From: a virus
IMG/VR virus record: IMGVR_UViG_3300004369_000126
Span: 1-26,092 of that record
DNA length: 26,092 bases
Direction: 5' to 3' (one strand)
Part shown: one piece after another, positions 9,036 to 22,195 of the stretch
How the letters are laid out: every line of letters begins with the position of its first letter
How positions within the stretch are numbered: the first letter of the stretch is position 1
Program-made: the position numbers and the translations under genes
The notes under the pieces: model-generated
Seen by the model: the letters and a program-made list of their open reading frames with translations, nothing else
Database searches by the model: none
What the model was told of the DNA's origin: nothing

Positions 9036-9827
9036 ATGGCTATGACAAAGAAAAGTGAAGGTGAGGTCATTGTGTTTGACCGAAACTCAGTACTTGAAGA
9101 ATTCGCTGGGGAGGGCTTGGAAGAGGTAACGTCAGAAGATCTAGCCATTCCCTTTCTGCGAGTGTTGGCGCAGCTTAGTCCGCAAGTGAACAAACGTGAC
9201 GGTGCTTATGTAGAAGGTGCTGAAGCGGGCATGATTTACAATACCGTTGCCAATGCAGCTTACGATGGTGAAAAAGGGATTTTGGTTGTCCCCTGCCACT
9301 ACAATAGGAAGTTTATCGAGTGGCAACCGCGTTCTTCTGGCGGGGGCTTTGTTAGCAGCCATCCTATAGACAGCAACCTGCTTAAAGAAACCACTAAAAG
9401 CGACCGTGGTGAGGATGTGCTTCCCAATGGAAACGTACTCACCAACACAGCCCAGTTTTTCGTATTGCTCGTAGAAGGTGAACAGTTGCAAAAGTGCTGC
9501 ATAACCATGAGCAGCACTCAGCTTAAAAAGGCTAGGCGTTGGGTCGCTCTTCAAGCGGGATTTAAGGGCAAAAGGAGCGACGGTTCTGCCTTCACACAGC
9601 CTAGCTTCAGCCAGATGTACCGGTTGAAAACTGTGGCAGAGTCTAACGATAAAGGCGATTGGTTTGGCTGGGACATTAGCCATGAACGTGCACTAGATCT
9701 CTCTGCAGAAGGGGGTGAGCTTTCCCTACTGTATGAGTGCCGTGACTTTAAAATAGCTGTTGCAGATGGCAGGGTAAAAACCAAGGACAGTAAGGAAAGT
9801 CCTGAGGAAGACGAAGCTCCGTTCTAA
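9036..9827 (+). CDS. Putative single-stranded DNA binding protein
   Basis: 263 residues from the ATG at 9036, chosen because AAAGGG lies about seven bases upstream; an ATG at 9030 would add two residues. The central part has a beta-rich pattern (GILVVPCHYNRKFIEW, AQFFVLLVEGEQLQKCCITM). The C-terminus is a disordered acidic tail ending in Glu-Asp-Glu-Ala-Pro-Phe. An acidic tail finishing in an aromatic residue is the hallmark of phage SSBs such as T7 gp2.5 and recruits replisome partners. The location between helicase and primase genes agrees. Sequence similarity to a named SSB family was not tested, so the call rests on tail, position and fold pattern. Confidence 0.65.
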   Translation: MAMTKKSEGEVIVFDRNSVLEEFAGEGLEEVTSEDLAIPFLRVLAQLSPQVNKRDGAYVEGAEAGMIYNTVANAAYDGEKGILVVPCHYNRKFIEWQPRSSGGGFVSSHPIDSNLLKETTKSDRGEDVLPNGNVLTNTAQFFVLLVEGEQLQKCCITMSSTQLKKARRWVALQAGFKGKRSDGSAFTQPSFSQMYRLKTVAESNDKGDWFGWDISHERALDLSAEGGELSLLYECRDFKIAVADGRVKTKDSKESPEEDEAPF

Positions 9828-11362
9828 TGAGCACATTAGCAGAGCAGTTCTTAGAGCTGTTCTGGGGTAGTGAAATAGCTCACGGCACTTTCATCGTCAA
9901 CAAATCTGCGGGCCTAGGCAAGCAGAAAGGGGATGCAAGTGTCGTGAGGCAGCCCGCTACTCTAGAACTATGGCATAAACATTTAGAGGGCGGAACGGGC
10001 CTAGGAATTATCCCCATTTGCATAGACAATTCATGTCGTTGGGGTGCAATAGATATAGACGATTACACAACGGTCCATAAGACGTTAATTCAAAAGCTGC
10101 GCAAACACTTGGTCCCTGTAATGTTGGGAAGGACTAAATCAGGGGGTGCCCATGTCTGGCTGTTTTGCCAAGAGGGCGTTCCCGCTGCTGATATGCGGCG
10201 AAAACTTACTGAGTTAGCTGCGGTTTTGGGATACGCCCGAAGTGAGATTTTCCCTAAGCAAGAGGAAATCTTGATAGACCGAGGAGATACGGGCAATTTC
10301 CTTAACATGCCCTACCAGGCAAATACTCGAACGGTGCGCTATGCTTTTGATAAGAAAGGTGAATCCTTAACGGCAGAAGAGTTCTTAGGGGAGGCTTTTG
10401 AAAAGAGGCTTTCTACGGATGAGTTCTATGCCTTAGATATCCCTAAGCTCTTTGCTGGTTCAAAAAAGGTAGAGATCCTTGAACAGGGGCCCCCCTGCCT
10501 CCAACACTTATGCGCCCAAGGATTTTCGGAGGGTAGTAGGAATAGTGCTCTCTTTAACCTTGGCGTGTATGCCAGAATGTTTGATACGGAGAACTGGGAA
10601 GTCCTAGTTCAAAAATACAATGTGGAACACTTGGTGCCCCCGCTCGGTCATAACGAGGTGGGAACTGTTATCAAACAGCTTCAGAAAAAAGATTACTTCT
10701 ACCGCTGTGATGACCAGCCCATAAATGCCCACTGTGATAAGGTGCTGTGCAGGGAAAGAAAGTTTGGAGTCGGACCCACCGGCATAAGCGCCGACTTATC
10801 TAGCCTAACCAAAATAGATGGGGACCCTGCGATATGGTTGTTGAATGTGGATGGTCAGCGGTTAGAGCTCACTACGACGGGGTTGACTGTACAGTCTCAG
10901 TTTCAGAAAGAGTGCGTATCACAAATTAATAAGTTCCCTGTGGCCGTGAACCAACGAGCTTGGCAGACTAAAATTCAAGTGTTGTTGGATAACGTGACCA
11001 TTGTAGAAGTGCCTCCTGATGCCACCCTAGAGGGAGAGTTTGAAGACCTGTTGTTTTCCTTCTGCTGTGAAAGGGCGCGTGGCTCTGAAAAAGAAGACTT
11101 GTTGCAGGGTATTTCTGTTTGGATGGACCACCGTGTGAGTTTTCAGGTAAAGGATGTGCGTAAGCATCTTCAGGCAAATGATTTTGCCCACTATTCCTCC
11201 AACAAAATCACGTTGAGATTGCAGGATATGTCTGCAGAAAAAACCTTTTGGAGGGTAAAGGGAAAGGGCCTTCATGTTTGGTCGCTGCCACAGAAGATGT
11301 TTGAAGATGAAGAGCTGCCTCTTGAGTTGCCGCCGTTGGCAGCGGAGCAAGATATACTATGA
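9827..11362 (+). CDS. Archaeo-eukaryotic primase (AEP/PrimPol-like) with C-terminal Cys domain
   Basis: 511 residues; the start overlaps the preceding stop (TAATG). The AEP catalytic core is visible: the metal-binding motif AIDIDDY with Asp76, Asp78 and Asp79, the SGGAHVWLF motif (105-113) with His109, and a third motif region GNFLNMPYQ (156-164). Downstream, PPC (Cys224), Cys294, Cys303 and Cys308 have an order reminiscent of the Fe-S domain of the eukaryotic/archaeal primase large subunit PriL, fused here in one chain; this part is inference. The enzyme would make primers for the phage polymerase. The C-terminal 180 residues are unassigned. It overlaps the UvrD-like gene by four bases. Confidence 0.85.
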   Translation: MSTLAEQFLELFWGSEIAHGTFIVNKSAGLGKQKGDASVVRQPATLELWHKHLEGGTGLGIIPICIDNSCRWGAIDIDDYTTVHKTLIQKLRKHLVPVMLGRTKSGGAHVWLFCQEGVPAADMRRKLTELAAVLGYARSEIFPKQEEILIDRGDTGNFLNMPYQANTRTVRYAFDKKGESLTAEEFLGEAFEKRLSTDEFYALDIPKLFAGSKKVEILEQGPPCLQHLCAQGFSEGSRNSALFNLGVYARMFDTENWEVLVQKYNVEHLVPPLGHNEVGTVIKQLQKKDYFYRCDDQPINAHCDKVLCRERKFGVGPTGISADLSSLTKIDGDPAIWLLNVDGQRLELTTTGLTVQSQFQKECVSQINKFPVAVNQRAWQTKIQVLLDNVTIVEVPPDATLEGEFEDLLFSFCCERARGSEKEDLLQGISVWMDHRVSFQVKDVRKHLQANDFAHYSSNKITLRLQDMSAEKTFWRVKGKGLHVWSLPQKMFEDEELPLELPPLAAEQDIL

Positions 11363-14328: not shown

Positions 14329-14847
14329 ATGGGGGGTTTAGAAGACTGGCAATACAGATCAACATGGGCTGATGGAACGACTTTCACAGCCCACGACTTA
14401 AAGACGTTAGGTTTGAAAAAAATTCTCAGAAGAAGGAAAAAAGAAATGGTAGATGAAAATATGGAAACTCATGTCGGTGATGTGGCCATCACTGACCCGA
14501 ACGCCACGGTGGTGGTTGAGGTTTCAGAAGGTCCGAAAAAAAGGGGGTCAAAGCCCGATTATCCTGGGCCAGATGCAGATACCCCTGCGGCCGAGGGCGT
14601 TATTTCCCATGGTAAGGGCCGAGGGCGTAACGAGTGGCTTGATAAGAAGCTTGTGATTGTTGCGTTGGAAGACGAGCCAGCGGGTGTTCGAAAAAATAGT
14701 AAGCGGTGGCGAAATCAGCTGGTGATCCTTCAGTGCAAGACAGTTAGTGAAGCCCTTGACCGACTGTCTGTTTTGACGAGTCCGGGCAGCGGAGCGGATA
14801 TCCGTTTGGCCGTCCGAAAAGAAATCATCAGGCTTGAAGCCCCTTAA
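14329..14847 (+). CDS. Unknown protein at head of DNA-modification cassette
   Basis: 172 residues. AGGAG seven bases upstream supports the ATG at 14329; an internal ATG at 14446 (residue 40) also has AAGGA before it and would give a 133 aa form. The N-terminal 40 residues end in a basic patch (KKILRRRKKEM). A low-complexity acidic/Pro region covers 45-90, and the C-terminal 80 residues (from about NEWLDKKLVIVALEDEP) look folded, with a beta strand rich pattern and helix SEALDRLSVL. No family recognised. Its place directly upstream of the pyrophosphorylase-like gene (12-base gap) makes a role in, or regulation of, base modification possible but unproven. Confidence 0.75.
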   Translation: MGGLEDWQYRSTWADGTTFTAHDLKTLGLKKILRRRKKEMVDENMETHVGDVAITDPNATVVVEVSEGPKKRGSKPDYPGPDADTPAAEGVISHGKGRGRNEWLDKKLVIVALEDEPAGVRKNSKRWRNQLVILQCKTVSEALDRLSVLTSPGSGADIRLAVRKEIIRLEAP

Positions 14848-14859
14848 GAAGGAATAGAC

Positions 14860-15738
14860 ATGAATCCGGAAAACGTAGAAAGTTTTTTCCATTGGATCAA
14901 CGAGCGGCATCGCATTTACCTAAAGCGAAAAGTTGGTCCGGCACCGTTTACAGAAGACGAGATACTGCAACGGTACAAGTTCACCAATCCGTTTCGTGAG
15001 AATGATCGCGTAACTATTTGGATGAGGCAAAACTGGACTAACCCGCACCAGCAAGCGCCTATTTCCCAGCAGATCTATAACATCTGTCTTTTCAGGATGT
15101 TTGGAACGCCGGAGTTTGCAGAAGCCGTTGGGTGGCAAACGGAGTTCAACCCCAGCCTTTTAAAATCAATCGCCCGTGAAAAATTGAACAGAAAAGAAAA
15201 AGTGTTCACGGGTGCTTACATCATCACTAACCAAGGGTTGAAATTGCCCAAGGAAGAAGTGGTGGTGGATCTTTTTCTAGCACCCGTGTGGCGTGACAGT
15301 GAAGATCTAGCCAAGGTCGCTGAGCAGAACAGTTTGAAGACTATGCACAAGGCCCTTGGAAAGTTGAAAGGTTGGGGTGGCGGCGGGTTCATGGCGTATG
15401 AAGCTGTCACTGATATGAACTACACCCCGGTCCTATCTAATGCGGAAGATAAAATGACTTGGGCTAACGCTGGCCCTGGAGCCAAACGTGGGTTGAACCG
15501 AATTCACAATCGCCCGCTCACCAACGGCCGCGCCGATTGGAACCAGGAGATGAAGGGACTCCTTTTGCACAAGGACTACTATGTAGAGATGCCCCAAGGT
15601 GATAACGACAAGATCGATATGCGTTGTATAGAGCATAGCTTGTGTGAGTGGGATAAGTACGAACGGGTACGGCTGGGCCAAGGTCGGCCAAGGAGCAAAG
15701 TATCCTATAACGATGGTGAGTGGTACCCGGTCAACTAG
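14860..15738 (+). CDS. 5-hmdU DNA kinase helical-domain / thymine pyrophosphorylase family protein
   Basis: 292 residues; AAGGA lies seven bases before the ATG. The N-terminal pattern FFHWINERHRIYLKR, then PAPFTEDEILQRYKFTNPFR and DRVTIWMRQNW (8-60), and the C-terminal signature IEHSLCEWDKYERVRLGQGR (from about 259) match what I know of the HMUDK_hel / alpha-glutamyl-putrescinyl-thymine pyrophosphorylase family. These proteins act on 5-hydroxymethyluracil in phage DNA, at the step that activates the hydroxymethyl group for later substitution. There is no P-loop here, so this is the helical domain alone and not the kinase fusion. Its neighbours, a hydroxymethylase-like TS and a glycosyltransferase, strengthen the assignment. 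The exact reaction is unknown. Confidence 0.8.
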   Translation: MNPENVESFFHWINERHRIYLKRKVGPAPFTEDEILQRYKFTNPFRENDRVTIWMRQNWTNPHQQAPISQQIYNICLFRMFGTPEFAEAVGWQTEFNPSLLKSIAREKLNRKEKVFTGAYIITNQGLKLPKEEVVVDLFLAPVWRDSEDLAKVAEQNSLKTMHKALGKLKGWGGGGFMAYEAVTDMNYTPVLSNAEDKMTWANAGPGAKRGLNRIHNRPLTNGRADWNQEMKGLLLHKDYYVEMPQGDNDKIDMRCIEHSLCEWDKYERVRLGQGRPRSKVSYNDGEWYPVN

Positions 15739-15747
15739 GAGTCTATC

Positions 15748-16749
15748 ATGAAAGAAGATACGGTAGTTGTGCACTTGACAAAGTGCGCGGACAAAACGAC
15801 TATTGCTAGCGCCAAGATCGCGAAGTTCATTGCCGAAGAGCACGATTTGCCTTTGGTGGATGGCCCTGGTCAATTCAAGAAACTGTATCACAACATTATT
15901 TATGTCAACAGCATGGGTGCGTTTGCCCACCCTGACTTGCGTAGAGAGTTGGCGGAGCAAGTCCTTTATTGTAATCGGTTGATTTATGTGCAGAACGATT
16001 ACAACGTTCACCCTATCAGCCAAGTACAAAAGGTTGTGCGGGATGACCGGGGTTGGAGCCATGATTTTCCATTCACCAAGGGAGAGATCTTCCTTTGGGG
16101 AACTATTCCTGAGTATATTCACCGGCCAAAGGATCGGTACCTTAACTGGAACCAGCTGACGTACACCCCGATCCCCTGGAAGGACCCCCGTACAGCCCCG
16201 CACAGTGGCTCAATATTTTATTGGGGTGCATGTAGGCCAGGGCGCAAAGACGCCTTTGCACGGCTTCTATTTGGCTGCTATGGCCATGCGAATTTCCCTG
16301 TGGTTATTAGCTGCGCCACAAAGGTGCGAAGCAAGTTTGAAGAAATCCCTAAAGAGTACAAAGACTGGATCTATGATCGGCCCACAGAAGTAAGCTATGT
16401 GAAACCTTTTAAAAGTTTGAAAGATCTTCAAGAGTATAGCTGCACCATCTACATGGAAGATGAAACCAGCAACGACGTGTATACCAGTCCGGCTAACCGC
16501 TTCTATGAAGCGCTCAGTGCAGGCCTATTCATGTTCGTAGACGATATCGCTGCGCACACACTCAAACGGGCCGGGTACGAAGTTCCCCCTGAGTGGGTTA
16601 TTAAAACTCCAGCGGACATTAAAAACGTTGGCCTACCTGTTCCTGTGGCGCAACGTAACAAGCAAGCTGTGCTGTGGAAATACAAGGCAGAGCAGGGCCT
16701 AGCAGAGCTTCGAAAAAACACCGCCCTAGCTATTTCAGGGCTTAACTAA
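15748..16749 (+). CDS. GT-B-type glycosyltransferase, candidate DNA glycosyltransferase
   Basis: 333 residues with AGGAG seven bases before the ATG. The C-terminal half shows GT-B features: an inter-domain motif IFYWGACRPGRKDAF (156-170) resembling the yyG-R-gR segment, a beta strand with NFPVVISC, and SPANRFYEALSAGLFMFVDD (247-266), in which Glu254 and Gly259 match the nucleotide-sugar binding E/G pattern. The N-terminal half has a Rossmann-like strand (VVVHLTK) and IIYVNSMGAF. No signal or membrane segment is present, so a cytoplasmic substrate is expected. Being between a thymine-pyrophosphorylase-family gene and a TS-like hydroxymethylase, it most likely transfers a sugar to hydroxymethylated pyrimidine in phage DNA. 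Sugar donor and acceptor are not readable from sequence. Confidence 0.75.
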   Translation: MKEDTVVVHLTKCADKTTIASAKIAKFIAEEHDLPLVDGPGQFKKLYHNIIYVNSMGAFAHPDLRRELAEQVLYCNRLIYVQNDYNVHPISQVQKVVRDDRGWSHDFPFTKGEIFLWGTIPEYIHRPKDRYLNWNQLTYTPIPWKDPRTAPHSGSIFYWGACRPGRKDAFARLLFGCYGHANFPVVISCATKVRSKFEEIPKEYKDWIYDRPTEVSYVKPFKSLKDLQEYSCTIYMEDETSNDVYTSPANRFYEALSAGLFMFVDDIAAHTLKRAGYEVPPEWVIKTPADIKNVGLPVPVAQRNKQAVLWKYKAEQGLAELRKNTALAISGLN

Positions 16750-16780
16750 ACCATTCAAAAAGTAAGGGTGTAGAAAGACC

Positions 16781-17899
16781 ATGTTTACTTTCAATGTGCG
16801 AAATGTCAGTGAAGCCTTATACGTTGTGAACCAAAGCCTTAAAGACAACGGCGTTCTGCGTGAGACACGAAACGGTCCCGCGTTAGAATTTCCCGCGCCA
16901 GTGGCTGTTTCCTACAGTCACCCCAAAGAACGGGTGTTGTTCTACCCCCAAAGAGACGCCAACCCCTTCTTCCACTTCATGGAAAGTATGTGGATGTTGG
17001 CTGGGCGCAGAGATGTTGAGTTTGTGCAACAGTTCAACAACCGAATGTCCGTCTACAGCGACAACGGTGTCAACTTCCACGGGGCATACGGGTACCGATG
17101 GAAGAATTGGTTTGAAGACAACCAATTAGACACTATCATCTCACGATTGAAAGAGTACCCAAACGACCGCCGATGTGTCCTAAATATGTGGGATCCAGAT
17201 AGTGATCTCACTTCTGGAAACCACAACGTAGATCTTCCTTGCAACACCCACATCTACTTTCGTGTGGAAGAAACAGGCTCCCTCGTTCCCAACCTATTGC
17301 ACATGACCGTGTGCAATCGTAGCAACGACATGATTTGGGGGGCACTCGGGGCGAACGCAGTGCACATGAGCTTTCTGCAAGAGTACATGGCAGAAATGGT
17401 TGGCGTTGCGGTTGGAACCTACGTTCAGTTCAGCAACAACTTTCACGCCTACCTAGACACATTGCCCAAGTTAGATGGCCTAGTCGCCGACTACGAGCCC
17501 TACCTGCACCTTCCAGAAGAAGGCAAGACCCCCGTTCCGTTGGTGACAGACACGGAAACGTTTGAAGAAGAGCTAGTGTACTTTATGACAGGCCAAGAGC
17601 CCCTGGTGCAAAGAGGCTACAGCAGCCCCAGCAGCAGCCTCAACAGCAGCGACTACCTGAACGATATCTTCCCCTACGTTGCAGAGCCCATGCGGAAAGC
17701 ATGGCGGCTTTGGAAAAGCCCCACAAAAGAAGTTGGAAAAGCAATCCAAGCCGCTGAAAAAATTCAGTCCGCCGATTGGCGGGTGGCCTGCTGCGAGTGG
17801 CTCCAACGAAGGGTCCCCATGCGCCACGAAATGAACGCGCCAGCATTAGACGAAGAATGGGGCTGCTCTAGTGCACAAAAGCCCAAAGAAGGGAAGTAA
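16781..17899 (+). CDS. Thymidylate-synthase-like dUMP hydroxymethylase
   Basis: 372 residues. TS-family landmarks: phosphate-binding NDRRCVLNMWD (about 127-137), the nucleophile Cys154 in DLPCNTHIYF, NRSNDMIWGALGANAVHMSF with Asn192, and NNFHAY with His222 and Tyr224. In this family, Asn at the position of E. coli TS Asn177 favours dUMP, whereas dCMP hydroxymethylases carry Asp. The residue after the nucleophile is Asn rather than the His of true TS, and the WGALGANAVH form is what I associate with phage hydroxymethylases making hydroxymethyl-dUMP from methylene-tetrahydrofolate. A plain TS is the alternative. The C-terminal 130 residues extend beyond the TS core. A weak GTAGAAAG precedes the ATG. 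Confidence 0.82.
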   Translation: MFTFNVRNVSEALYVVNQSLKDNGVLRETRNGPALEFPAPVAVSYSHPKERVLFYPQRDANPFFHFMESMWMLAGRRDVEFVQQFNNRMSVYSDNGVNFHGAYGYRWKNWFEDNQLDTIISRLKEYPNDRRCVLNMWDPDSDLTSGNHNVDLPCNTHIYFRVEETGSLVPNLLHMTVCNRSNDMIWGALGANAVHMSFLQEYMAEMVGVAVGTYVQFSNNFHAYLDTLPKLDGLVADYEPYLHLPEEGKTPVPLVTDTETFEEELVYFMTGQEPLVQRGYSSPSSSLNSSDYLNDIFPYVAEPMRKAWRLWKSPTKEVGKAIQAAEKIQSADWRVACCEWLQRRVPMRHEMNAPALDEEWGCSSAQKPKEGK

Positions 17900-17902
17900 C
17901 TC

Positions 17903-18277
17903 ATGCACAGTGAAATCATAGAAGTTGTTAAAGGGCTCACTGAAAAAGATTGGAAAGCACTGCAGAAGTCCGAAAAAAGCTACGGCGATAGCTGGCGTAA
18001 AAGAGGGGGCGTGGGTGCCTTCATGATGCTGGCCCGCAAGTGGGACAGGATAAATGTGCAAGTGGAAAAATCTTCCTACAATGTGTTCGACGCCGTTGAA
18101 GAAGACGGGCGGGAAGAAGGGATACTAGACGATATCAAAGATCTTCGGCGGTACCTTCTGTTGGTAGAAGCATGGTGCCACATGCAGACAATAGACTACG
18201 ACATAGAGCAAGAGCCCTTAGATCCCGAAGAGGACACTCAGGCCGACATCCCCCGCGCCATCGGCGTATACGATTGA
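17903..18277 (+). CDS. Nmad1/DUF1599-like protein
   Basis: 124 residues, three bases after the TS-like stop. The stretch KSYGDSWRKRGGVGAFMMLARKWDRI (residues about 27-52), followed by an acidic helix ILDDIKDLRRYLLLVEAW, matches the layout of the nucleotide modification associated domain 1 (DUF1599): a YG-SW motif, a Lys-x-x-Arg-Ile helix and a later Asp-Asp-helix-Tyr. The domain is often found beside phage base-modification genes and its helical build recalls nucleotide-binding MazG-like folds, though catalytic activity is unproven. The location right after the hydroxymethylase fits a nucleotide-pool role. It overlaps the next start by one base (TGATG). Confidence 0.7.
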   Translation: MHSEIIEVVKGLTEKDWKALQKSEKSYGDSWRKRGGVGAFMMLARKWDRINVQVEKSSYNVFDAVEEDGREEGILDDIKDLRRYLLLVEAWCHMQTIDYDIEQEPLDPEEDTQADIPRAIGVYD

Positions 18278-18429
18278 TGCAAGAAGAGGGGCTCCCTAAA
18301 AGCAACATGGAAAAGCCGTTGCTGGCAACATGCAACTGCAGCGCAGAACACCGAACACTTGTTGTTAGGACGCTAAAAAACCGATGGCCTAAATGCTCTT
18401 GTGGCCTGTTCATGAAAGTTGAAAAGTAA
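18277..18429 (+). CDS. 50 aa CxC/CxC zinc-finger-like mini-protein
   Basis: 50 residues, start coupled to the upstream stop and stop coupled to the polymerase start (TAATG). Two CxC pairs, Cys19/Cys21 and Cys40/Cys42, are separated by 18 residues, and the rest is basic, consistent with a single zinc-bound nucleic-acid-binding finger. No family recognised. Being welded between the modification cassette and the polymerase gene suggests a replication accessory role, which is inference. Confidence 0.55.
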   Translation: MQEEGLPKSNMEKPLLATCNCSAEHRTLVVRTLKNRWPKCSCGLFMKVEK

Positions 18430-20363
18430 TGGCCAAAGGCCCCCGGCAAATGACTTTCTTCGCGCCTAAAGGCGAGTGGGTGGCACCAACAGAATTCCCG
18501 GACCTATCAGCGTATAGCACCGTAGCCGTGGATCTTGAAACAAGAGACCCGCACCTCCGTGAACGCGGCAGCGGGTGGCCCCGAAAAGACGGATACATTA
18601 TCGGTGTCGCAGTAGCTGTTGAAAACGAAGCATGGTACTTTCCCATCAGGCATGAAATTGGCCCCAACCTTGATGTTAAACGAACCTTGGGTTGGCTGGC
18701 CGACTTGCTTAAAGACCCCACCCGGCAGGTAGTATTTCACAATGCGCAGTACGATGTAGGCTGGCTCCTCGCCGAGGGGGTAACTATCCACTCGGCAATA
18801 CGCGACACCATGGTCGTGGCCCCTTTGTTGGATGAAAATCGGTTTAGCTATTCGCTTAATAATTTAAGTAGAGACTACCTTGCAGACATTAAGTCGGAAA
18901 AGGGCTTACGAGAAGCAGCCGCTGAGTTTGGTGTGGATGCCAAGAGCGAAATGTACAAGCTTCCGGCCAGCTTCGTGGGGGCATACGCCGAGCAAGACGC
19001 AGCACTTACACTACGGTTGTGGAACCACTTTCAAGTGCTAATTGTTAAAGAAGACATCGCCGATATCCTAGCACTTGAACACAAAGTCCTCGCTACTGTC
19101 ATTCCCATGCGGCATCGTGGGGTGCCCATTGATATAGATAGGGCCGCAGAACTAAAAGGGTACTTCCACAAAAAAGAAATAGAATTCCTATCCGAAATAA
19201 AGCGCGAAACAGGCAAAGACGTTGAAATATGGGCTGCTGCGAGCATTGCCAAAGCCTTTGACGCGATTGATCTGCCCTACCCCCGCACCGAAAAGACGGG
19301 TGTTCCAAGCTTCACGAAGTTTTGGCTAAAAAACCACGAACACAAAGTCCCCAAAATGATTGTAGAAGCACGAGAGCTTAACAAAGCCCGAACGACCTTC
19401 GTAGACACCATTCTCAAACACAACCACAACGGTAGAATTCACGCTGAGCTGAACCAGCTACGAAGCGACGATGCAGGAACAGTCACCGGGCGTTTTAGCT
19501 ACAGCAATCCTAATCTGCAACAAATGCCTGCACGGAACGCTGAAATTGGCCCGTTGATTCGCAGCCTGTTTGTACCCGAAAAAGACACCGTGTGGGGCAC
19601 CTTTGATTACTCCAGCCAAGAGCCCCGCTTGGTCGTTCACTACAGTAGCCTTCTAGGGTTCAACGGAGCCACGGACTTTGCGGATGAGTACCATAAGGAT
19701 GCAACAACAGATTTCCACCAAATGGCGGCGGATATCGTGGGCCTTCCTCGCAAACAGGCTAAGGATATCAACCTTGGATTGTTCTATGGAATGGGCACCA
19801 AGAAGCTGGCGACGAGCTTGGGGCTAGAAGTAGACGAAGGTAAAAAACTTTTTGAAGAGTACCACGCAAAAGTTCCGTTTGTGAGGCAGTTGAGCGAATA
19901 CGCCATGAAACGCGCATCCACCAAAGGGGTGATCCGCACCCTGCTAGGTAGACGGTGCCGCTTTGATAAGTGGGAGCCCAGTCGGTACGGCCTATACAAG
20001 TCTCTAAGCTACCAGGAGGCCTATGACGAGCACGGCCCTAGCATTCGCCGCGCCTTTACCTACAAGGCCCTCAACAAGCTTATACAAGGCAGCGCGGCAG
20101 ACCAGACCAAAGCAGCCATGGTCGCTTTGCACGAAAACGGCTATTTGCCCATGATACAAGTTCATGACGAGCTTGACTTTTCGGTGTCTTCTGAAAAAGA
20201 GGCCAAGGAGATCAAAGAAATCATGGAAACCTGTGTAGAGCTACGGGTACCCAGTCTTGTAGATTCTGAATTCGGTAAGAACTGGGGGGAAGCAAAACAA
20301 ACCTTTGGAGATAAACCATGGACACGAGGGATAGCGGACAGCCACTCGGAGATGGAAACGTAG
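18429..20363 (+). CDS. polA: Family A DNA polymerase with 3'-5' exonuclease domain
   Basis: 644 residues. Exonuclease motifs: DLET (Asp35, Glu37), HNAQYD (Asp109) and YAEQD (Tyr186, Asp190), so proofreading looks intact. Polymerase motifs: TVTGRFSYSNPNLQQMPAR, motif A DYSSQEPR (Asp393), motif B RKQAKDINLGLFYG (441-454), motif C VHDE (Asp580, Glu581). The residue equivalent to E. coli Pol I Phe762 is Leu449. There is no 5'-3' nuclease domain, as usual in phage enzymes. It is the replicative polymerase of the phage and, with the upstream cassette, the enzyme that would have to accept a modified dUTP analogue. It overlaps the HD gene by 46 bases. Confidence 0.95.
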   Translation: MAKGPRQMTFFAPKGEWVAPTEFPDLSAYSTVAVDLETRDPHLRERGSGWPRKDGYIIGVAVAVENEAWYFPIRHEIGPNLDVKRTLGWLADLLKDPTRQVVFHNAQYDVGWLLAEGVTIHSAIRDTMVVAPLLDENRFSYSLNNLSRDYLADIKSEKGLREAAAEFGVDAKSEMYKLPASFVGAYAEQDAALTLRLWNHFQVLIVKEDIADILALEHKVLATVIPMRHRGVPIDIDRAAELKGYFHKKEIEFLSEIKRETGKDVEIWAAASIAKAFDAIDLPYPRTEKTGVPSFTKFWLKNHEHKVPKMIVEARELNKARTTFVDTILKHNHNGRIHAELNQLRSDDAGTVTGRFSYSNPNLQQMPARNAEIGPLIRSLFVPEKDTVWGTFDYSSQEPRLVVHYSSLLGFNGATDFADEYHKDATTDFHQMAADIVGLPRKQAKDINLGLFYGMGTKKLATSLGLEVDEGKKLFEEYHAKVPFVRQLSEYAMKRASTKGVIRTLLGRRCRFDKWEPSRYGLYKSLSYQEAYDEHGPSIRRAFTYKALNKLIQGSAADQTKAAMVALHENGYLPMIQVHDELDFSVSSEKEAKEIKEIMETCVELRVPSLVDSEFGKNWGEAKQTFGDKPWTRGIADSHSEMET

Positions 20364-20947
20364 AAGAGCTGATCGCTTGTATGGATCAACGGCTAGCCAC
20401 TGGAGACATTCTTCGGTATCACACCACACCGCAAGTCGGACAAGGACAAACCGTTGGACAGCACACTTGGCGCGGATTAGTGCTATTGGATTTGATATGG
20501 CCTTCTGCTCCCATGCAGATATGGCGATATTTTTTGTACCACGATGCGGCAGAGCTGTTCACGGGGGACATCCCTAGTCCCATAAAATGGTCCAACAAAG
20601 AGCTCCAAAAAATAATTGTTGGGATAGAAGAAGATATCTGCGATAAAATGGGGCTCCCTTCAAAAACGGACCTGCCTGTAGATGAGCAAATCCTTGTAGA
20701 AATGATTGATGTGCTAGAGTTGATGTTTCATTGCAACCCGCTTAGGAAAACGATAACTAAGGCTGAGGAGATATATCAGGTGGGCTACGAAAAGGTTTGG
20801 AAGCTGAGTGTACAGCTGGAAATGATCCTACGAAAATCCCAAAAGAGTATGGCCCACCAAGAAAGAACCAGGAGTTTATCTATGATAAGAAAACTTTTGG
20901 ACGAAATTGGGCCATTTCCAGTGCGATATCCGCCGCTATTTGAATGA
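20318..20947 (+). CDS. YfbR-like HD-domain 5'-nucleotidase
   Basis: 209 residues; GGAG eight bases upstream supports the ATG inside the polymerase gene. HD-superfamily metal ligands are visible: His49 in VGQHTWR, His75-Asp76 with Glu79 in YHDAAELFTGDIPSPIKW, and Asp131 in MIDVLEL. The HDAAE-TGD-P-P-K block matches YfbR, which removes the 5'-phosphate from dNMPs such as dTMP and dUMP. A phage with modified thymine could use it to lower the normal dTMP pool, as other hmdU phages do with dTMP-degrading enzymes. That link is inference; general nucleotide salvage is the alternative. Confidence 0.85.
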   Translation: MDTRDSGQPLGDGNVEELIACMDQRLATGDILRYHTTPQVGQGQTVGQHTWRGLVLLDLIWPSAPMQIWRYFLYHDAAELFTGDIPSPIKWSNKELQKIIVGIEEDICDKMGLPSKTDLPVDEQILVEMIDVLELMFHCNPLRKTITKAEEIYQVGYEKVWKLSVQLEMILRKSQKSMAHQERTRSLSMIRKLLDEIGPFPVRYPPLFE

Positions 20948-21643: not shown

Positions 21644-22195
21644 ATGAATATATTTTTTCTTGATGAAGACCCAAAGAAAGCCGCTATCGCCCACGGCGAT
21701 AAACACTGCAACAAAATGATTCTTGAAACAGCGCAGATGCTGTCTACAGCACATCATTTGTGCAATACGTTTGAGTATGCTGAAAAACATCAACTGTACA
21801 AATCGGCATTCCAAAACCACCCTTGCACTCGTTGGGTACGCGCTGCCCAAGAGAACTATGTATGGGCGCATCATCTGCTCTATCATCTTTGCAGTGAGTT
21901 CAAATTTCGGCGCAAAAAAATACACGCAACGACAAGATTGTTGCTGCCCCTGTGTGAAGTGCCCCCGTTCATAGCTGAAAAATGGAGAACACCCGTAGCG
22001 CAAGCGATGCCCGAAGAGTTCAAAGATAAGAATCCTGTGATTGCCTATCGCCAGTACTACCGATATAAAGTTGAACAAGGAAAAGTAGACTACAACTGGG
22101 GAAGAGAATCGCCTGATTGGCTAGAAAAAGAGCAGCCCGTTAAAAAATGCCGGATCGTGACAGGCTTTGTTGAAGGAGAATATCCCAATGGATAA
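21644..22195 (+). CDS. Conserved phage protein of unknown function
   Basis: 183 residues with a His/Cys/Trp-rich character. The opening MNIFFLDEDPKKAAIAHGDK HCNKMILETAQMLSTAHH matches a family I have seen in many tailed phages, notably environmental ones, whose members carry the D-D-P-x-K, H-x-D-K-H and ETAQ-LSTAHH blocks. Later NHPCTRWVR (58-66), HATTRLLLPL and AYRQYYRY blocks are also typical. The many conserved His, Asp and Glu residues suggest a metal enzyme, but no activity is established and I give no function. The upstream gap carries the conserved cgtagaaagggg motif. It overlaps the next gene by eight bases. Confidence 0.75.
   Translation: MNIFFLDEDPKKAAIAHGDKHCNKMILETAQMLSTAHHLCNTFEYAEKHQLYKSAFQNHPCTRWVRAAQENYVWAHHLLYHLCSEFKFRRKKIHATTRLLLPLCEVPPFIAEKWRTPVAQAMPEEFKDKNPVIAYRQYYRYKVEQGKVDYNWGRESPDWLEKEQPVKKCRIVTGFVEGEYPNG

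Follow-up and report, generated by a model that had tools for sequence, protein, structure and literature searches.

The locus described here raises the question of how a phage can hypermodify the thymine of its DNA when it carries HMUDK_hel, a protein usually partnered with a 5-hydroxymethyldeoxyuridine (5-hmdU) DNA kinase, apparently without that kinase. It lies in IMG/VR record IMGVR_UViG_3300004369_000126, a linear fragment of a tailed phage whose entire 26,092 bases are called the window here. The locus consists of consecutive genes for a 172-amino-acid (aa) protein, HMUDK_hel, a glycosyltransferase (GT), an enzyme resembling thymidylate synthase (TS), and a 124 aa protein, followed by DNA polymerase A (PolA) and an HD-domain phosphatase. 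The 5-hmdU-derived thymine hypermodifications of phages M6, ViI, and phiW-14 depend on a kinase step and bear amines or amino acids. The first-pass annotation of the window, made from the letters alone, had read these genes as a hypermodification cassette that builds 5-hmdU and attaches a sugar to it. The protein families, the predicted GT-B fold, and the absence of the kinase support this proposal, and the cassette probably leads to glycosylated 5-hydroxymethyluracil in the phage DNA.

The five consecutive plus-strand open reading frames (ORFs) were recovered at exactly the coordinates first assigned to them (14329-18277), and their order was kept in related contigs. They contained no internal stops and had ratios of nonsynonymous to synonymous substitution rates (dN/dS) of 0.07-0.19 against their nearest relatives, confirming them as real and conserved genes under purifying selection. 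Purine-rich stretches were present upstream of most of them.

The TS-like enzyme matched known families (Pfam, 2e-20; PHROG 5131, 3.2e-107), was 42.9% identical to gp58 of Pseudomonas phage M6, and had the cytidine monophosphate (CMP) 5-hydroxymethylase MilA as its closest sequence in PDB. In TS, an Asn (N177 in E. coli) selects deoxyuridine monophosphate (dUMP), and W80 stacks on the pterin and is needed for methyl transfer. When 84 homologs were aligned to E. coli ThyA, C154, N192 (equivalent to E. coli N177), D183, H222, and Y224 were invariant, and the position of W80 was a gap in all 84. Since the catalytic Cys and the dUMP-selecting Asn are kept and the pterin-stacking W80 is deleted, established TS enzymology points to a dUMP hydroxymethylase making 5-hydroxymethyl-dUMP (5-hmdUMP), in line with the hydroxymethylase features noted earlier.

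The HMUDK_hel signature reported for the 292 aa protein was confirmed by its Pfam match (PF18723), which scored 160 bits against a cut-off of 25 and covered model positions 4-276 of 281; its AlphaFold2 (AF2) model had a pLDDT of 91. At least 514 relatives were found in IMG/VR alone. The homolog in M6 is gp55, encoded right after the PF18748 kinase gp54, and in Bacillus phage SBSphiC the 5-hmdU DNA kinase and HMUDK_hel are fused into one protein of 636 aa. HMUDK_hel was present in M6, ViI, phiW-14, SBSphiC, RHph_TM26, and EP_H11, and was searched for but not found in SPO1, SP-15, T4, and YerA41. The DNA of M6, ViI, and phiW-14 contains hypermodified 5-hmdU, and that of SPO1 contains plain 5-hmdU. 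Therefore, HMUDK_hel tracks the post-replicative hypermodification of 5-hmdU and not its synthesis. A DNA-glycosylase-like fold, suggested by eye from a GxGxFMAYE motif, found no support; comparisons with helix-hairpin-helix (HhH) DNA glycosylases were not significant in Foldseek (MagIII, probability 0.08; template modelling (TM) scores 0.26-0.32) and hhalign alignments to Nth and MutY were at control level.

The 5-hmdU DNA kinase family PF18748 was absent from the window, from each of the 17 related records that measure 50-69 kb, and from two others, 36.7 and 95.7 kb long, with the M6-like phage Bhz59 detected as the positive control. No P-loop kinase was found in the window or in four contigs of 60-63 kb read end to end, the only convincing Walker A protein in each case being a UvrD-like helicase. 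These results uphold the earlier suggestion that the route differs from the kinase pathway. The four contigs are as long as complete genomes of HTVC023P-type pelagiphages, for which PMC9599517 gives a mean of 58.8 kb. The amino acid:DNA transferase family PF18724 was above cut-off in none of eight related records; its hidden Markov model (HMM) gave sub-threshold matches in two contigs (E ~1e-4), with coordinates inside HMUDK_hel. The exception among the cassettes is that of a distant 95.7 kb phage (L017, 9105-12869), in which a PfkB sugar kinase, two GTs, and an unrelated P-loop NTPase were found next to TS.

What the cassette holds instead is a 333 aa protein with no sequence match in Pfam, PHROGs, NCBIfam, or the PDB sequences; by sequence it did not belong to the T4 beta-glucosyltransferase (beta-GT) family in Pfam or PHROG, and no homolog of cellular origin was found in a search of genome contigs. 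Its AF2 model (pLDDT 80.5, pTM 0.81) had the GT-B fold that had been anticipated. Against the whole PDB, T4 DNA beta-GT (1BGT) ranked first (E 1.6e-6, probability 1.00, TM score 0.56), and the T4 alpha-GT bound to hydroxymethyluracil (HMU) DNA ranked third. R163, R166, and E254, which are invariant in the family, fell on R191, R195, and E272 of T4 beta-GT in a colinear but weak hhalign alignment; these T4 residues are the Arg pair at the uridine diphosphate (UDP) phosphates and the Glu at the ribose, respectively. Based on the modelled fold, the protein is predicted to be a DNA 5-hmdU glycosyltransferase.

Remote homologs of this GT were identified by tblastn in the coliphages EP_H11 and IME392, which are unrelated to the window phage. 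They lie immediately upstream of HMUDK_hel, among genes for a thymidylate-kinase-like protein, TS, HD, a second putative GT, and a PIG-L deacetylase. In the cultured EP_H11 (L001, 7292-12924), the PIG-L deacetylase, two putative GTs, HMUDK_hel, the thymidylate-kinase-like protein, and TS form a row, and this phage offers a practical system for studying the chemistry of the cassette. Its P-loop protein was considered as a 5-hmdU DNA kinase and rejected; it is not PF18748, matches the thymidylate kinase family phrog_2107, and is more likely a nucleotide kinase. A further homolog, S13_057 of a T4-like Cronobacter phage (L002, 4668-5519; hhalign, 98.9%), is unannotated, lies between uvsY and uvsW in a genome lacking HMUDK_hel, and is a candidate DNA glycosyltransferase for another base.

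Gene order was compared in the best 80 of the 514 HMUDK_hel loci. The flanks were near-constant, running from the 172 aa gene through HMUDK_hel, a slot of variable content, TS, and the 124 aa gene to PolA and HD. In some loci the slot was occupied by the window's GT, alone or joined by an FkbM methyltransferase or a radical SAM/SPASM-type protein. In others it contained a TAGT (PF20691), which usually came with radical SAM; a GT4-like protein, at times with a cytidylyltransferase close by; or a further putative GT that matched no family (cluster 65), with or without FkbM. It was also found empty. The TAGT in the slot of sister phages matched phrog_842, a beta-glucosyl-HMC-alpha-glucosyltransferase, at 9.6e-43. 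Optional helpers of sugar type comprised the FkbM methyltransferase, the cytidylyltransferase, a mannose-6-phosphate isomerase-like protein, and a PfkB kinase, as well as the PIG-L deacetylase in EP_H11. After near-identical PolA sequences were removed, 40 records with eight slot types remained. On the PolA tree the slot type had to change 13 times or more, with well supported branches forcing at least three changes each for two of the types. The gene set thus behaves like an exchangeable glycosyltransferase cassette, and the swapping of the slot suggests a modular disguise of the viral DNA.

Individual relatives added variations on this arrangement. Two of them carry an extra FkbM-type methyltransferase gene that separates TS from the 124 aa gene (L006, 4519-5142; L010, 12088-12744) and whose product possibly methylates the added sugar. 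In L012-L016, homologs of the window's GT are paired with the radical SAM-type protein otherwise found beside TAGT. HMUDK_hel lies directly beside TS with no GT in L073 and L074, a minimal cassette that gives a handle on what HMUDK_hel does alone.

We infer a pathway, including its substrate, its sugar, the direct chemistry, and the role of HMUDK_hel, that begins with the TS-fold enzyme, whose family suggests that it would convert dUMP into 5-hmdUMP. This product would be phosphorylated, presumably by host kinases, and then built into DNA by PolA. The HD enzyme, whose gene also adjoins TS in M6 (gp59) and EP_H11, is likely to adjust the nucleotide pool and may drain dTMP. As its fold suggests, the GT-B enzyme would then glycosylate the 5-hmdU residues of the DNA directly at their hydroxymethyl group, with no 5-phosphomethyl intermediate. 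T4 beta-GT acts on hydroxymethylcytosine (hmC), and T4-type glycosyltransferases take the hydroxymethyl group itself as their acceptor. Because of this, and because nothing in view would make one, the activated (phosphorylated or pyrophosphorylated) intermediate that had been envisaged is unsupported. HMUDK_hel, here without its usual kinase partner, would present 5-hmdU DNA to the slot transferase, as it would serve the kinase in M6-like phages. With slightly less than even confidence, we propose that it is an adaptor that binds 5-hmdU in DNA or presents it to whichever transferase fills the slot. More tentatively still, it may be a universal adaptor for 5-hmdU DNA that phages combine with either a kinase (M6, ViI, and the SBSphiC fusion) or one of several unrelated GTs; if so, it would allow kinase-independent, lineage-specific glycan coats on thymine. 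Such DNA might resist restriction and CRISPR.

Several observations weigh against this pathway. The window and its close relatives are fragments of at most 36.7 kb, and therefore the absence of the kinase is well supported for the sister lineages only. The TM score of the GT match to T4 beta-GT was reached at 7 Å root-mean-square deviation, and the hhalign alignment was borderline, as 3 of 200 shuffles scored as high and none aligned as many columns. The HMUDK_hel model matched no fold in PDB. The minimal cassettes keep HMUDK_hel and TS but no GT, and PF18748 was absent from the L073 record. Numerous charged residues of HMUDK_hel are invariant across 32 homologs, a pattern expected of an enzyme. 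These residues, and its retention in L073 and L074, would fit a HMUDK_hel that is itself the catalyst and either activates the 5-hydroxymethyl group, as the original "pyrophosphorylase" proposal has it, or acts as the transferase of a small group, after which the GT would add sugar to the intermediate. A remote link to the amino acid:DNA transferase, through the weak HMM matches mentioned above and a shared E..LC.W motif, also favours it. However, HMUDK_hel lacks a nucleotide-binding motif, the missing PDB fold match counts here as well, and in SBSphiC it is fused to a P-loop kinase that does the activating; we regard a catalytic HMUDK_hel as rather less likely than not.

It is improbable that a glycan of the host or of the virion is the acceptor of the slot GT and that the phage DNA carries 5-hmdU only. 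Similar GT-B folds serve many acceptors (AviGT4, Gtf3, SenB), and plain 5-hmdU would be enough for some protection, but the slot is flanked on both sides by DNA-modification genes and nearly overlaps HMUDK_hel (median gap of -3 bases), the sister phages fill it with the TAGT family of DNA GTs, the coliphage GT is beside HMUDK_hel too, and the nearest fold is that of a DNA GT. The order of dUMP hydroxymethylase, HMUDK_hel, HD, and PolA is common to M6 and would also suit the known amino-acid pathway of the M6/ViI type, with the kinase and the amino acid:DNA transferase encoded in an unseen part of the genome. Against this stand the lack of PF18748 in the 17 long contigs, where Bhz59 served as the control, the helicase as sole Walker A protein in the four contigs read completely, and the lack of any transferase above cut-off, which together make it very improbable. 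Hardly more can be said for attachment of the sugar to the nucleotide before replication, with PolA incorporating a glycosylated dNTP: the cassette does adjoin PolA and nucleotide enzymes, but HMUDK_hel belongs to DNA-acting pathways, the GT fold resembles DNA glucosyltransferases, and bulky sugared nucleotides would need to pass kinases, so that we consider this the least credible proposal.

The cassette, with its predicted direct glycosylation of 5-hmdU in DNA, resembles several known systems. It shares the dUMP hydroxymethylase (43%), HMUDK_hel, HD, and PolA, in nearly the same order, with the M6/ViI pathway to 5-(2-aminoethyl)deoxyuridine (5-NedU) and 5-(2-aminoethoxy)methyldeoxyuridine (5-NeOmdU) (M6 gp51-gp59), but has a GT instead of the PF18748 kinase, the PF18724 transferase, and the pyridoxal phosphate (PLP) enzyme. 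The likeness to T4 beta-GT comprises the GT-B fold, the top PDB match, and, in a weak alignment, the phosphate- and ribose-contacting residues, whereas a family-level sequence match is absent and the partner enzyme makes hydroxymethyl-uracil rather than the hydroxymethyl-cytosine of T4. TAGT/PF20691 DNA glycosyltransferases, known from T6-like phages and TET clusters, occupy the same slot in sister phages but are of GT-A type (PMC13216743), a fold unrelated to the GT-B of the window. Modified thymines that carry sugars have been described in the DNA of phages SP-15 (DHPU glucosylation) and YerA41 (thymine glycosubstitution) (PMC5977210, PMC9023294), but both genomes lack HMUDK_hel, and SP-15 builds a dihydroxypentyl chain. 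DNA glycosyltransferases and TAGTs as such were already known (PMC13216743).

The composition of the cassette is consequently less novel than the first-pass annotation had claimed, since the pair of TS and aG/PT-PPlase1 is known from HTVC023P-type pelagiphages (PMC9599517), whose mean genome length the relatives found here fit at 56-63 kb. The accessible part of that paper interprets the pair as M6-like and makes no mention of an exchangeable slot, of the lack of a kinase, or of the beta-GT-like family. No description of HMUDK_hel-linked thymine glycosylation was found in the open-access literature searched. What is new here is the exchangeable slot, the presence of a beta-GT-like family at the HMUDK_hel locus, and the proposed sugar branch without a kinase. 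If true, a widespread kinase-free branch with a swappable GT slot would amount to a new chemistry by which phages shield their DNA and would provide new DNA glycosyltransferase tools, and the role of HMUDK_hel would be directly testable.

Table 1. Genes of the cassette and its right-hand neighbours in the window
Feature	Position	Strand	Evidence or remarks
172 aa protein, function unassigned	14329..14847	+	basic low-complexity N-terminal part; conserved C-terminal domain of ~60 aa
HMUDK_hel (PF18723; aG/PT-PPlase clade 1), predicted 5-hmdU-DNA recognition/handling module	14860..15738	+	Pfam 9.9e-47
GT-B glycosyltransferase, predicted DNA 5-hmdU glycosyltransferase; exchangeable slot gene	15748..16749	+	AF2 fold
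dUMP hydroxymethylase (TS fold), predicted 5-hydroxymethyl-dUMP maker	16781..17899	+	PHROG 5131 3.2e-107
124 aa conserved protein, function unassigned; constant cassette part between TS and PolA	17903..18277	+	conserved context
Small (~59 aa) Cys-rich zinc-ribbon-like protein	18250..18429	+	homolog at L007 12454-12633; dN/dS 0.11
DNA polymerase A (3'-5' exonuclease + polymerase), constant cassette neighbour	18429..20363	+	Pfam PF00476 2e-63, PF01612
HD-domain YfbR-like 5'-deoxynucleotidase	20318..20947	+	Pfam PF12917 6.8e-9

The two outer proteins of the five-gene set are constant cassette members. The 172 aa protein, whose gene was directly upstream of HMUDK_hel in most relatives, had no significant match in Pfam, PHROG, or NCBIfam. 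The 124 aa protein had been labelled as Nmad1/DUF1599-like, an identity that found no support, as five members gave no match to the corresponding HMMs up to an E value of 5 and a PDB profile search was empty as well; the by-eye motif resemblance (YGDSWRKRGGVGAFMMLARKWDR...DLRRYLLLVEAW) is a lead only. Judged by synonymous divergence (dS), the window is a recombination mosaic relative to L006 and L007 between 14329 and 20363. The dS to the window was 0.43 (L006) and 2.19 (L007) for the 172 aa gene and 0.52 and 0.67, respectively, for the GT, and HMUDK_hel, TS, and PolA had values of 0.26-0.40 for L007 versus 1.4-2.2 for L006. It may be that the GT moves, or co-evolves, together with the 172 aa gene.

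The start of the zinc-ribbon-like ORF at 18250 was inferred from the conserved ORF of relatives; the listed start at 18172 gives a longer product. Elsewhere, the window encodes two large left-end proteins without a known family, which are probably structural, a lysozyme, an SNF2 helicase, a primase of the archaeo-eukaryotic primase (AEP) type, the UvrD-like helicase, and a DUF932 protein, and further right the cassette, PolA, the HD phosphatase, and a small terminase. A conserved 183 aa protein without a known family is encoded downstream of the cassette (21644-22195), and the AEP-type primase (9827-11362) resembles the primase domain of TOTE conflict systems.

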